Below, one piece after another: positions 15,891 through 32,359 of a DNA stretch of 64,000 bases. The notes below the pieces were generated by a model, which saw only the letters and a program-made list of their open reading frames with translations, had not been told where the DNA came from and did not search any database. Each line of letters starts with the position of its first letter. Position 1 is the first letter of the stretch. A program made the position numbers and the translations under genes. Source of the DNA: a virus; the IMG/VR virus record IMGVR_UViG_3300027708_000032, positions 1 to 64,000 of that record. One strand, given 5' to 3'.

Positions 15891-16234
15891 TATTTATCTT
15901 TTTTTAAACCCCTTGCTTTAGGAGCTTCTGTTTTTTCTACTAACACTTCGTCACCCACCTTAAACCCTTGTTCAGCTATTTCAGGATTGGCATCCATGTC
16001 TTCCTGTGTAATAACATGAGGCTGAGCATTAGCTGGTGGCTGGGGATTAGTAATCTGAGCTATAAAGCTAAGAGCCTTAAGCTCATCTGCTCTGTACGTA
16101 GCTAGCTTAGTGTTAATCTCCTGAAGTTCTAGCTGTACTTTTTTAACTTCAATCTGTTCTTGTAAAAACTTAATCACCTCTTCTTTAGACGGTGGTGTTT
16201 GAACTGGTTCTTGAGCTGTCGTTTGTTCTGACAT
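15890..16234 (-). CDS. Coiled-coil protein (114 aa), unknown
   Basis: Residues 15-60 form one long Glu/Lys/Gln-rich helix (EEVIKFLQEQIEVKKVQLE) likely to dimerise. The flanks are Pro/Thr/Gln-rich, and the C-terminus is basic (RGLKKDK). It overlaps the winged-helix-like gene by one base. It may be a scaffold or adaptor; no family is recognised. Confidence 0.6.
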   Translation of the reverse strand: MSEQTTAQEPVQTPPSKEEVIKFLQEQIEVKKVQLELQEINTKLATYRADELKALSFIAQITNPQPPANAQPHVITQEDMDANPEIAEQGFKVGDEVLVEKTEAPKARGLKKDK

Positions 16235-29491: not shown

Positions 29492-29740
29492 ATGGAACAC
29501 ATATTTGTTACCAATGGAACTGTACAGCTAATACTATCACCTGAAGATGACTTAGATCGTCTTCTTCTAGCAGAACTTTTAAAAGACGGACCCTTAGAAC
29601 TAGATACTATCAGACAACCTGTTAGTATATTGGGTAAGTCTGTAAAGGACGGATTAATCATTAGAAAAAAGAAAACAGATGCAGCAGAAACTAAAGATGT
29701 GTCGGGGCTGCCAAAGTCTAAAACACATATGGAAGTCTGA
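29492..29740 (+). CDS. Small protein before HNH gene (82 aa)
   Basis: Residues 17-60 (LSPEDDLDRLLLAELLKDG, then SVKDGLIIRKKK) are helical with a basic end. It overlaps the HNH gene by 44 bases in another frame and is probably coupled to it. Confidence 0.55.
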   Translation: MEHIFVTNGTVQLILSPEDDLDRLLLAELLKDGPLELDTIRQPVSILGKSVKDGLIIRKKKTDAAETKDVSGLPKSKTHMEV

Positions 29741-30065
29741 CAAGAAAGATAAGTATTGTAAAGAATGCTGGTACAAAATAGAAAAGCCTAAATCTATAGC
29801 TCCTGTCTCTGAAAAGAGGCAGGTGGCTATGGATGAGTATTCTAAGAAAAGACTAGCATTCTTAACATTACATACTAACTGTCAAGCAAGAATGCCTGGC
29901 TGTACAGGTTTAAGTAATGACGTACACCATAAAGCTGGCCGTATAGGAGACAACTATCTAAACATGAACACATGGCTTGCTGTATGTAGGTCGTGCCATT
30001 CATGGATTGAGCTTAACCCAGATGCAGCTAAAGATCTTGGGTTTTCAGAGTCTAGACTTCAGTAA
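29697..30065 (+). CDS. HNH endonuclease with zinc ribbon
   Basis: About 122 residues from MCRGC (29697); a start at 29679 is also possible. The N-terminal ribbon has MCRGCQ and YCKECW. The nuclease core shows CQARMPGC, then VHHKAGRIGDNYLN with the catalytic HH, and CRSCHSWIE. HNH enzymes cut DNA with a single metal. This could be a homing-type nuclease or act in DNA processing. It shares the overall plan, but not the sequence, of the HNH gene at 55581. Confidence 0.75.
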   Translation: MCRGCQSLKHIWKSDKKDKYCKECWYKIEKPKSIAPVSEKRQVAMDEYSKKRLAFLTLHTNCQARMPGCTGLSNDVHHKAGRIGDNYLNMNTWLAVCRSCHSWIELNPDAAKDLGFSESRLQ

Positions 30066-30286
30066 TATATTACTTAAACACCCTATAATGTGTCATAAAA
30101 CACACAAAACAGGGCATAATAGGTATTATATTACTAGTTATAATGTATGTTATATGTAGCATTAATGACCCATTATGCTTAAAAGCATATTGTAGTATGC
30201 AATATTGTAAATGTCTTAAAAACCATACATTAAGTTAAAAACTTCAAAATATTTGGTATAATGATGGATATATTGTACATTGTATT
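30066..30286 (+). promoter_or_regulatory. Hairpin-rich leader of the GIY-YIG/HTH gene
   Basis: 220 AT-rich bases with TGTGT/ACACA near 30090-30105, GCAT-AATG/CATT-ATGC near 30160-30179 and GCATA/TATGC near 30185-30200. TATAAT occurs at about 30258. The inverted pairs could be operators for the HTH part of the next protein. No frame of interest was found. Confidence 0.4.
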
Positions 30287-30871
30287 ATGAAGACAAATTT
30301 AATTTATGGTCTCAGAGACCCTAGAAATGATGTATACTATTACATTGGTAAGACTACAGTAGGTTATGAAAGACCTCTTAAACACTTAACAAAATCTCAT
30401 AGTAAAACTGTTAACGATTGGGTAAACCAGCTTGAAAGTTTAGGTTTGGTACCAGCTGTTGATGTTATAGAAAGAGATATATTATTAGAAAATTTAACAG
30501 AAAGAGAGAAGTTCTGGATAGACTATCATTATGATTTAAATCCAGAACTTTTTAATATTCAATCACTACCTGAAACTATTAATAAAGTAAGAACTCAGGA
30601 TGATGATGCTAAGTTTAATTCTCTAGTAAGTTTAGTGCTTAACATAGGTAATATACTAAAAACTGAAAGAATGTCTAGAAAACTTACACAAGAGGAACTT
30701 GCAAAAAAATCTGGACTTCATAGAAGTACTATTTCATTATGTGAAGGTGGTAACAATGTAACAGTAGAAGCTATTAAAAAGTATTTAGCAGCATTAAAAG
30801 GTGTAGATATACTTACTAGAAATCTAGATTGTATTAGAGTTGGTAAATCCCACCAGAAAACAGTAAAATAG
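30287..30871 (+). CDS. GIY-YIG nuclease fused to XRE helix-turn-helix
   Basis: A 194-residue fusion. Residues 1-85 are GIY-YIG-like: LIYGLRDPRNDVYYYIGKT carries the two Tyr of the family (here YGL and YIG), R/H residues follow in RPLKHL, and the metal-binding Glu lies in NLTEREKFWID. Residues 117-175 are an XRE-type HTH (LTQEELAKKSGLHRSTISL then EGGNNVTVEAIKK). GIY-YIG enzymes cut DNA; the HTH would give site choice or let the protein repress its own gene. It is isolated from its neighbours by noncoding stretches, like a selfish homing gene or a regulator. Confidence 0.75.
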   Translation: MKTNLIYGLRDPRNDVYYYIGKTTVGYERPLKHLTKSHSKTVNDWVNQLESLGLVPAVDVIERDILLENLTEREKFWIDYHYDLNPELFNIQSLPETINKVRTQDDDAKFNSLVSLVLNIGNILKTERMSRKLTQEELAKKSGLHRSTISLCEGGNNVTVEAIKKYLAALKGVDILTRNLDCIRVGKSHQKTVK

Positions 30872-30927
30872 CTTTTTGTGATGATATTTACCTACATTTT
30901 AACCTATTTTGTAGATAATAAACAACA

Positions 30928-30939
30928 GTTTACGTAAAC
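30928..30939. promoter_or_regulatory. Perfect palindrome, candidate operator
   Basis: GTTTACGTAAAC is a perfect 12-base palindrome, extended by a second half-site copy (GTAAACGTAAAC overlapping it). It lies between the GIY-YIG/HTH gene and the next start, so it is a natural candidate for HTH binding. Confidence 0.5.
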
Positions 30940-30964: not shown

Positions 30965-31348
30965 ATGACATCAATAGAATGGTTAATAGAACAATTAATG
31001 GAAAGAGGTTTCCAAGAAAAGAATTTTGAAATACTTAACCAAGCCAAAGAAATGCACAAGCAAGAGATAATAGATGCTGTTGATTCCAATTTTTCTTATT
31101 CTAGTAATGAATATCCTACATTGGGAGAACAATATTATCATAAAACTTTTGTAAGTAATGAAAGTAATAACCATATTTCTGACATCAGCAAAATGGTAGA
31201 AGTTCACCAACAAGAAATATCAGATGAAGAAATAGAGAAAGCAGCAAGAGATTATGACAACAGTGTTATTTATGGACCACCATTACTGCATTTTGAACAA
31301 GGTGCATTTTGGTATAGAGAACAATTAAAACAAGCTAAAAAAGATTAA
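30965..31348 (+). CDS. Early protein with YREQLK motif, paralog A (127 aa)
   Basis: A helical, acidic protein. The C-terminal 45 residues (ISDEEIEKAARDYD ... FWYREQLKQ) recur in the next gene, with two exact DNA repeats (31214-31237 with 31486-31509, and 31310-31330 with 31573-31593). The domain is a short helical unit familiar from Bacteroidota phage proteins. Function unknown. Confidence 0.6.
   Translation: MTSIEWLIEQLMERGFQEKNFEILNQAKEMHKQEIIDAVDSNFSYSSNEYPTLGEQYYHKTFVSNESNNHISDISKMVEVHQQEISDEEIEKAARDYDNSVIYGPPLLHFEQGAFWYREQLKQAKKD
31214..31237 (+). repeat. 24-base direct repeat, copy 1
   Basis: Identical to 31486-31509 and encodes the shared EISDEEIE segment. It shows that the C-terminal domain was duplicated recently. 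Confidence 0.8.
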
Positions 31349-32125: not shown

Positions 32126-32242
32126 ACTGTAACAAAAACTTGACAAATCTGTTACTAATTTAAGGAAATTGGTCACAAATTTAGTAGATATTTGCGACAA
32201 AACTGCATGTAGTTTTAGTAAAAATTCATGCAAAATCTTATT

Positions 32243-32315
32243 AGTCAGGTAGCTCCAACTCTTAGAGCCTTTGCTTGTAGCAGAGAGTGTGTGGGTGAAA
32301 ATCCCACCCTGACTG
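32243..32315 (+). tRNA. tRNA-Thr (anticodon TGT)
   Basis: A cloverleaf of 73 bases can be drawn. The acceptor AGTCAGG/CCTGACT is a perfect 7 pairs. The D stem is GCTC/GAGC, the anticodon stem CTTTG/CAGAG with loop CTTGTAG (C32, T33, TGT, A37), the variable loop five bases, and the T stem GTGGG/CCCAC. Departures from the norm are the T loop TGAAAAT, a D loop without GG, and no base between the D and anticodon stems. No CCA is encoded. It would read ACA (and perhaps other ACN) codons, which are frequent in this genome. It is the only tRNA seen in the window. Confidence 0.7.
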
Positions 32316-32359
32316 ATTTTTTATATCTTTAACATCAGCTTAAACCTGACATATAACCT

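Follow-up and report, generated by a model that had tools for sequence, protein, structure and literature searches.

XRE control proteins such as C.Esp1396I and C.BclI regulate themselves through paired operators. Among homing nucleases, I-TevI binds both its homing site and a homing-site-like operator that lies over its own promoter and is identical to the site at 15 of 20 positions, and it represses itself, as set out in an excerpt of PMC2988022; several T4 homing cassettes rely on phage promoters that lie upstream of them (same excerpt of PMC2988022). Odn of Vibrio phage ICP1 is described, in a portion of PMC8263062, as a T5orf172/GIY-YIG nuclease joined to RepA_N that cuts a satellite origin, and T5orf172 phage homing genes, in a portion of PMC10448857, as lying beside essential genes and having modular DNA-binding parts with zinc-finger domains. 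GIY-YIG proteins fused to other HTH domains are mentioned in an excerpt of PMC1564403. A search of open-access PMC titles and the opening parts of abstracts returned no description of a phage GIY-YIG/XRE fusion or of paired palindromes of the kind described below.

Here, we describe a phage gene that joins these two kinds of domain. It lies in a 64,000-nucleotide stretch of DNA (the window) belonging to a 128,065-base virus record (Table 1). Sequence similarity identifies the virus as a crAss-like phage, since the record encodes a Crassvirus capsid protein (PF23898, E 5.8e-31) and its head and packaging proteins match portal and terminase PHROGs; from the provenance of its relatives we read it as a freshwater phage. 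The whole record contains one GIY-YIG match and one HTH_3 match, both within the fusion gene. We consider it likely that this is a free-standing GIY-YIG homing endonuclease gene, carried on a 694-bp cassette, that uses its XRE domain both to find its target and to repress itself.

Table 1. Features of the locus, with positions in the window.
Feature	Positions	Strand	Basis
Left neighbour, HNH-type ORF, 128 aa, outside the cassette	29679..30065	+	PHROG 740, E 2.2e-07
Left-flank palindrome O1 (P'), outside the insert	30142..30163	+	Profile; position homologous to P' of empty sites
Mobile cassette (insert), 694 bp	30177..30870	+	Same length in 9/9 loci; flanks align to empty sites
Cassette leader, 110 bp, with promoter-like TATTTGGTATAATG at 30250-30263	30177..30286	+	Closely similar in relatives
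Operator-like palindrome O2 (AATGATGGATATATTGTACATT), promoter/start region, 5 nt ahead of the ATG	30260..30281	+	Profile rank
GIY-YIG/XRE fusion protein, 194 aa, ATG start	30287..30871	+	ORF list, relatives, dN/dS
GIY-YIG nuclease domain, aa 1-92	30287..30562	+	Invariant residues and predicted-structure match
Short linker, aa 93-117	30563..30637	+	Predicted structure, dN
XRE-type helix-turn-helix, aa 118-175	30638..30811	+	Pfam, fold match
Right-flank palindrome O3 (P), outside the insert	30877..30898	-	Profile; homologous to the profile source, not independent
Second right-flank palindrome O4 (P''), 31 bp after O3	30908..30929	-	Profile
GTTTACGTAAAC, perfect 12-bp palindrome, outside the insert, private, chance level	30928..30939	.	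Sequence, shuffles, relatives

An earlier, sequence-only reading of this DNA had pointed to a nuclease and a repressor-type HTH within one 194-residue protein, and the ORF, the Pfam matches and a predicted structure confirm it: by sequence and model, the fusion is real. HTH_3 matches residues 124-174 of the window protein with 35.4 bits against a cut-off of 23, and GIY-YIG matches residues 5-79 with 16.3 bits, under Pfam's 22.6. Across the 42 family members scanned, HTH_3 is detected in 27 and GIY-YIG in 21 at E<=0.01, and Pfam scans of the window protein and these relatives contain no NUMOD or zinc-finger family. All 42 sequences share residues Y7, Y19, G21, R29, H33, E74 and N90, which by their numbering we take to correspond to the nuclease residues of I-TevI. 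The structure predicted from 42 aligned sequences has a mean pLDDT of 81.7 (an earlier prediction from 6 sequences was poor, at 46.9) and a pTM of 0.46, so that the arrangement of its domains is uncertain. Model residues 3-93 match the I-TevI catalytic domain 1ln0 (Z 8.9 over 83 residues, rmsd 2.5), and residues about 111-182 match XRE/HipB/C-protein folds; the HTH part, for which C.Esp1396I and C.BclI are the top Foldseek matches, is similar to repressors and C proteins. The predicted fold and the invariant residues are those of the GIY-YIG superfamily, with DNA cleavage as the predicted activity, and the fold and above-threshold HTH_3 match of the other part are those of a putative Cro/C1-type XRE DNA-binding domain. 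Whole-gene dN/dS ranges from 0.09 to 0.41 between pairs and that of the nuclease part from 0.13 to 0.28 (inserts differing by more than a few per cent); the nuclease part is the most strongly constrained in most comparisons, and the linker has the highest dN of the three protein parts in most pairs.

IMG/VR holds nine full-length close relatives and one partial one; the full-length relatives are 76-82% identical to the window protein except for L001, which comes from the same phage and encodes an identical protein (relatives and related loci are numbered L001 onward). A second scan, seeded on two conserved N-terminal words, gave 56 loci, 46 of them new and nearly all at about 34-59% identity, among them one partial relative (L085) at 80%; because the seeds lie in the nuclease domain, no conclusion is drawn from conservation of the seed words. 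One Bacteroidetes MAG contig also carries a relative. The family has two forms: one, of about 182-204 aa, has an XRE domain, and the other, of about 226-250 aa, differs in its HTH and has a longer tail (the reading frames of L082 and L086 may begin further upstream), and neighbourhoods across the wider family are mostly unlike each other. INPHARED phages yielded no relatives at 1e-5, and at E<=5 the matches were to GIY or XRE stretches separately, with no match spanning 80% of the query; a plasmid search with the GIY part gave one weak match. The family profile matches 211 of 296 bacterial genomes in the phylum to which the L049 MAG belongs; apart from the match to L049's own genome, all of the matches listed lie mainly over the HTH end, so here the profile picks up XRE domains rather than the fusion. 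Such sequences are not new, since one (A0A6J5KZ42, 33% identity) is present in public structure predictions, annotated only as HTH_XRE.

Comparison of loci shows the gene sitting between conserved genes in some phages and absent from others. The insert consists of the leader and the ORF as far as the TA of its TAG stop codon, and its length is exactly 694 bp at the aligned junctions of all nine loci tested (the window and L002-L009, among which the two members of L003/L004, of L005/L007 and of L008/L009 share an identical or nearly identical insert; the truncated loci L010 and L085 were left out). No target-site duplication is visible at these junctions. Empty sites in related phages, which the earlier reading had proposed looking for, exist as six distinct sequences at the same intergenic place (L027, L031, L032, L040, L042 and L044); the L030 site has the same sequence as L031, and L028 is without the site altogether. 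Flanks match at up to 54 of 60 positions on both sides (filled L003 against empty L031), the HNH-type left neighbour is also found in empty-site phages, and a single metagenome, 3300010885, yields both the empty L042 and the filled L001 contigs. An 808-bp block, made up of the insert and about 57 bp on each side, is 97% identical in the comparisons L002/L003 and L003/L005, against 66-82% in other alignments of at least 100 bp, and in L003 it lies in a different gene context. An exact insert, empty sites and a 97% block in genomes 66-82% alike form the pattern expected of a homing gene: presence or absence at a precise site in otherwise matching phages, and apparent spread to new genomes with co-conversion of the flanks. 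On sequence grounds, then, the gene is a mobile cassette that was recently transferred. Its leader, which occurs nowhere else in the window even when one mismatch is allowed, presumably acts as its promoter.

These features bear on whether the gene might instead be a resident regulator with a nuclease-derived domain, lost from some phages by ordinary gene loss and acting mainly to repress its neighbours. XRE domains are usually repressors, and operator-like palindromes lie on both flanks of the gene, as such a regulator would lead one to expect. An exact 694-bp insert and a 97% block in otherwise 66-82% alike genomes fit it poorly, as do nuclease residues that are invariant and a nuclease part that is the most constrained in most comparisons, and we give this account hardly any credence.

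Several further features were seen around these loci. A tRNA-Thr gene (anticodon TGT) lies at window positions 32242-32316, about 1.4 kb past the cassette, and L006 holds the same kind of tRNA at 1148-1222. Rfam finds tmRNA-like genes (RF00023) in L003 (3873-4356, 83.6 bits) and L031 (1240-1729, 61.2 bits), where ARAGORN listed none. A family of small ORFs (MTSIEWL...), in tandem copies with a recurring AAAAAAGATTAATTATGACATCAATAGAATGG ahead of each start, lies at window positions 30965-31348 and has repeated relatives in L005, L007 and L008; the leader region of L010 contains a small gene whose end has the same sequence. Immediately 3' of the site, L003, L006, L008 and L044 have in common about 200 nt of conserved sequence (GATCGTAAGTTCAGGAACACC...) that looks non-coding and for which Rfam gives nothing at gathering score. 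The phage of empty-site L027 carries a different member of the nuclease family elsewhere (L099, at 15939-16202 of that record), of which only the GIY-YIG part was matched (E 1.4e-19).

Each of the six empty sites contains two 22-bp imperfect palindromes, P' on the left and P on the right, whose starts are 41 bp apart (for L040, the P' start was read from profile scans, where its score is lower). The insertion point lies between them, in a 22-19-22 arrangement, and several empty sites have a third palindrome 31 bp after P. Seven distinct right-flank elements, all taken from relatives and not one from the window, were combined into a profile whose first match in the 64-kb window is the gene's own leader (30260-30281, 21.3 bits), followed by 30908, 30641 (within the ORF), 30877 and 30142. 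A symmetric version run over 128 kb ranks 30260, 30908, 30142 and 30877 highest, with scores of 19.9, 13.3, 11.4 and 10.0 and a next score of 8.8. Six shuffled windows reach 17.7 with the plain profile and 15.7 with the symmetric one, so the three lower scores are unremarkable alone and it is their clustering that is remarkable; only the leader match is independent, because the element at 30877 is homologous to the profile source and the other two flank the same site. The inverted pairs that the earlier reading saw ahead of the gene are thus real, and as O1 and O2 they join a palindrome family that also includes O3 and O4 after it.

Six close leaders have p values of 0.000-0.010 (500 shuffles each), the leaders of L002, L003, L005 and L006 reach only 10.2 bits, and the best site/leader pair, the window leader against L042, is identical at 17 of 20 positions. 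By simple word comparison, most of 16 site/leader pairs do no better than shuffles, and a general test for words common to the upstream and downstream flanks, from which near-duplicates and truncated loci had been left out beforehand, gave p<0.05 in only 2 of 41 loci.

The palindrome named in the earlier reading, GTTTACGTAAAC with a further GTAAAC after it as an extra half-site, is present, 57 bp past the end of the insert, but we reject it as an operator. Perfect 12-bp palindromes are common in the AT-rich window (36, against a mean of 25.5 and a range of 17-32 in 20 shuffles), and this one is absent from the readable right flanks of L002-L009 (58 bases only for L002) and, of the relatives, occurs only in L001; it is private to one phage, at chance level and outside the insert.

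Distant relatives provide a broader comparison. Of 21 of the XRE type, 15 have the best profile match of the whole locus in the 120 nt ahead of the gene (two of the 15, L049 and L073, are low-scoring), against 0.31 expected by length and a mean of 0.92, with a maximum of 12, for 1000 permuted profiles. Relatives with the other HTH have their locus-best match in the leader in one case of 13, a result equalled by 248 of the 1000 permuted profiles, and we conclude that the motif goes with the XRE-type subfamily. The rank test left out the near-duplicates L057, L059, L061, L066, L070, L078, L079, L084 and L086, as well as L072 (a miss, its leader match ranking only third), L089 and L095. Two other-HTH loci have palindromes of this type after the gene: L091 at stop+7 and stop+48, a pair exactly 41 bp apart, and L080 at stop+3.

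The same comparison weighs on the view that the protein is a homing endonuclease whose HTH serves target binding only, the leader palindrome being a promoter feature or chance and the gene having no autorepression. Leader palindromes do overlap promoter-like sequence, and their shared AATG..CATT ends could therefore partly reflect promoter boxes; the profile match is also weaker in four leaders. The inner bases agree too, however, in the 17 of 20 identical positions of the best pair, and the preference for XRE-type over other-HTH leaders appears although the latter genes also have leaders. Homing without autorepression thus seems to us unlikely, if conceivable.

We therefore return to a homing gene that represses itself. 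The gene sits among copies of a palindrome, one of which spans the gene's own promoter, so a single DNA-binding domain probably serves both to direct the nuclease and to turn its gene off; the XRE domain is the only recognised DNA-binding part of the protein, and its target motif is apparently shared with the operator of the gene. We propose that the XRE domain would bind 22-bp imperfect palindromes of the AATG-N14-CATT type and, as two of these flank the insertion point 41 bp apart, that the protein would bind the empty site through P' and P. The GIY-YIG domain would cut near the junction of the empty site, or perhaps some distance away as T4 Seg enzymes do, and the break would then be repaired from the donor, bringing in the cassette. 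Insertion parts the two palindromes to about 735 bp, which would protect the filled allele, and the palindrome that the leader carries across the promoter/start region would allow autorepression by the same protein. A copy of the putative target over the putative promoter is what an I-TevI-like autorepressor would be expected to have. The self-regulating homing nuclease suggested by the earlier reading is well supported by the empty sites and by a site-like palindrome over the promoter region, and loses only GTTTACGTAAAC as its operator.

The other suggestion made there, an anti-phage or anti-plasmid cutter guided by the HTH, finds no support here: matches in PADLOC are confined essentially to the HTH part and include no nuclease, leading us to reject a defence nuclease, and presence or absence at a fixed site fits homing. 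A related idea is that the protein resembles Odn and acts against satellites or competitors, its XRE domain directing cuts at the origins or operators of other elements. Odn supplies a precedent, as a GIY-YIG-type nuclease with a borrowed DNA-binding domain that cuts a satellite origin according to a portion of PMC8263062, and the palindrome pairs look like regulatory sites. Yet the apparent sites of the protein are in phage genomes, at the gene's own insertion point and in its leader, and precise insertion into empty sites is the outcome of homing; we regard an anti-satellite role as highly unlikely.

Members of the family also occupy a second place, in T4-like phages, where L062 and L056/L057 carry the gene between the exonuclease and tail tube genes. 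It is present in 3 and missing from 77 of the best 80 of 198 exonuclease loci. In L122, whose exonuclease is 92% identical to that of the filled L062, the exonuclease/tail-tube place is empty and contains a pair of identical 22-bp palindromes, 41 bp apart, and L123 and L163/L165 have pairs similar to those of L122 at the same place. By eye, other GIY-YIG-like homing genes occupy this spot in some phages (L138, L141).

Pairs of this kind are also found in phages without the gene. Scanning newly fetched loci with the outer bases and spacing fixed gave at least 81 distinct pairs; since both were fixed, the frequency and spacing of the pairs are not evidence, and only the match of the inner bases is. 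Among the matches listed, with near-duplicates removed, at least 9 of 14 inner bases agree between the arms in 21 of 35 pairs (shuffled mean 3.9, maximum 10 in 1000 shuffles), and a 43-row run of the test gave the same picture as this 35-row run. Good pairs among the matches listed are mostly intergenic, several overlapping or directly following a stop codon; a tRNA is found within 200 bp of 6 of the 34, compared with 3 of 47 weak pairs, and the gene family is in none of the 34 loci. Examples of gene-less 22-bp pairs with a 19-bp spacer and matching arms include L122:3818-3880, L123:3818-3880, L163, L252:3301-3363, L290:4957-5019, L221 and L309. Such pairs adjoin tRNAs or the 3' ends of conserved genes, which by eye are those for the clamp loader, tail sheath and single-strand-binding protein. 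Rfam has no name for the paired palindromes (six sources searched). We rejected an RNA reading of the empty sites, which is inconsistent (z of -3.4, -1.4, -1.3, -5.1 and -1.0 in five sites), and also a resident XRE protein that binds the palindromes in empty-site phages, since none of seven records, all of them fragments and including G009 of L028, which is without the site, has an HTH_3 match.

The pairs persist in many gene-less phages and so must be maintained for some other reason; another factor may use them as its sites. One explanation is that the paired palindromes, rather than the gene, are the mobile unit, short elements moved in trans by nucleases of this kind, with the cassette as the autonomous form. 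The empty element follows the HNH gene in L031, L042 and L044 and lies elsewhere in L032, pairs occur at unrelated loci of T4-like phages, and the arms of the listed pairs match, as just described, all of which would suit such a unit. Homing requires no such element, though, gene order is shuffled in these phages anyway, and none of the 34 good-pair loci among the matches listed contains the gene family, so that we consider movement in trans decidedly unlikely. As a tentative and on balance doubtful suggestion, the pairs could be a widespread, undescribed class of phage landing pad or short mobile element, sited where conserved genes end and next to tRNAs, which XRE-nuclease homing genes adopted as target and, with one arm taken along over the promoter, also as operator.

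The homing cassette that we propose suggests a simple route by which a selfish nuclease could gain both aim and restraint: fuse to a repressor HTH, insert among copies of its operator, and keep one of them in front of the gene, across the promoter. The motif follows the XRE-type subfamily but not the other-HTH one, which allows target and operator to be read off the sequence, and sites read in this way give candidate site/protein pairs for compact DNA cutters. The cassette also offers a direct test of how homing genes spare their own locus.

Compared with described systems, the fusion protein combines features that are otherwise found apart. Its HTH part is like C.Esp1396I and C.BclI, its best Foldseek matches, which unlike it have no fused nuclease. 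Like the T5orf172 genes it appears to be a phage homing gene with a modular DNA-binding part, which here is an XRE domain where those genes, in a portion of PMC10448857, have zinc fingers. Like Odn it joins a GIY-YIG-type nuclease to a borrowed DNA-binding domain (PMC8263062, in part), whereas the nuclease domain of Odn, in that portion, is C-terminal and directed at a satellite origin. As with T4 Seg genes, a single intergenic gene between conserved genes is present or absent among related phages; unlike those genes, the cassette has an XRE domain and paired palindromes at its insertion point, and unlike the T4 cassettes that use upstream phage promoters in the excerpt of PMC2988022, it brings its own leader. 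The cassette differs from I-TevI in not being intronic as far as seen, in having as its DNA-binding part one XRE domain after a linker of about 25 residues, with no zinc-finger or NUMOD match, and in a putative site that is palindromic rather than extended and asymmetric. As in the excerpted account of I-TevI, an N-terminal GIY-YIG domain is followed by a C-terminal, HTH-containing DNA-binding part, and a site-like operator lies over the putative promoter, with 17 of 20 positions identical in the best pair here and 15 of 20 in I-TevI (PMC2988022, in part).
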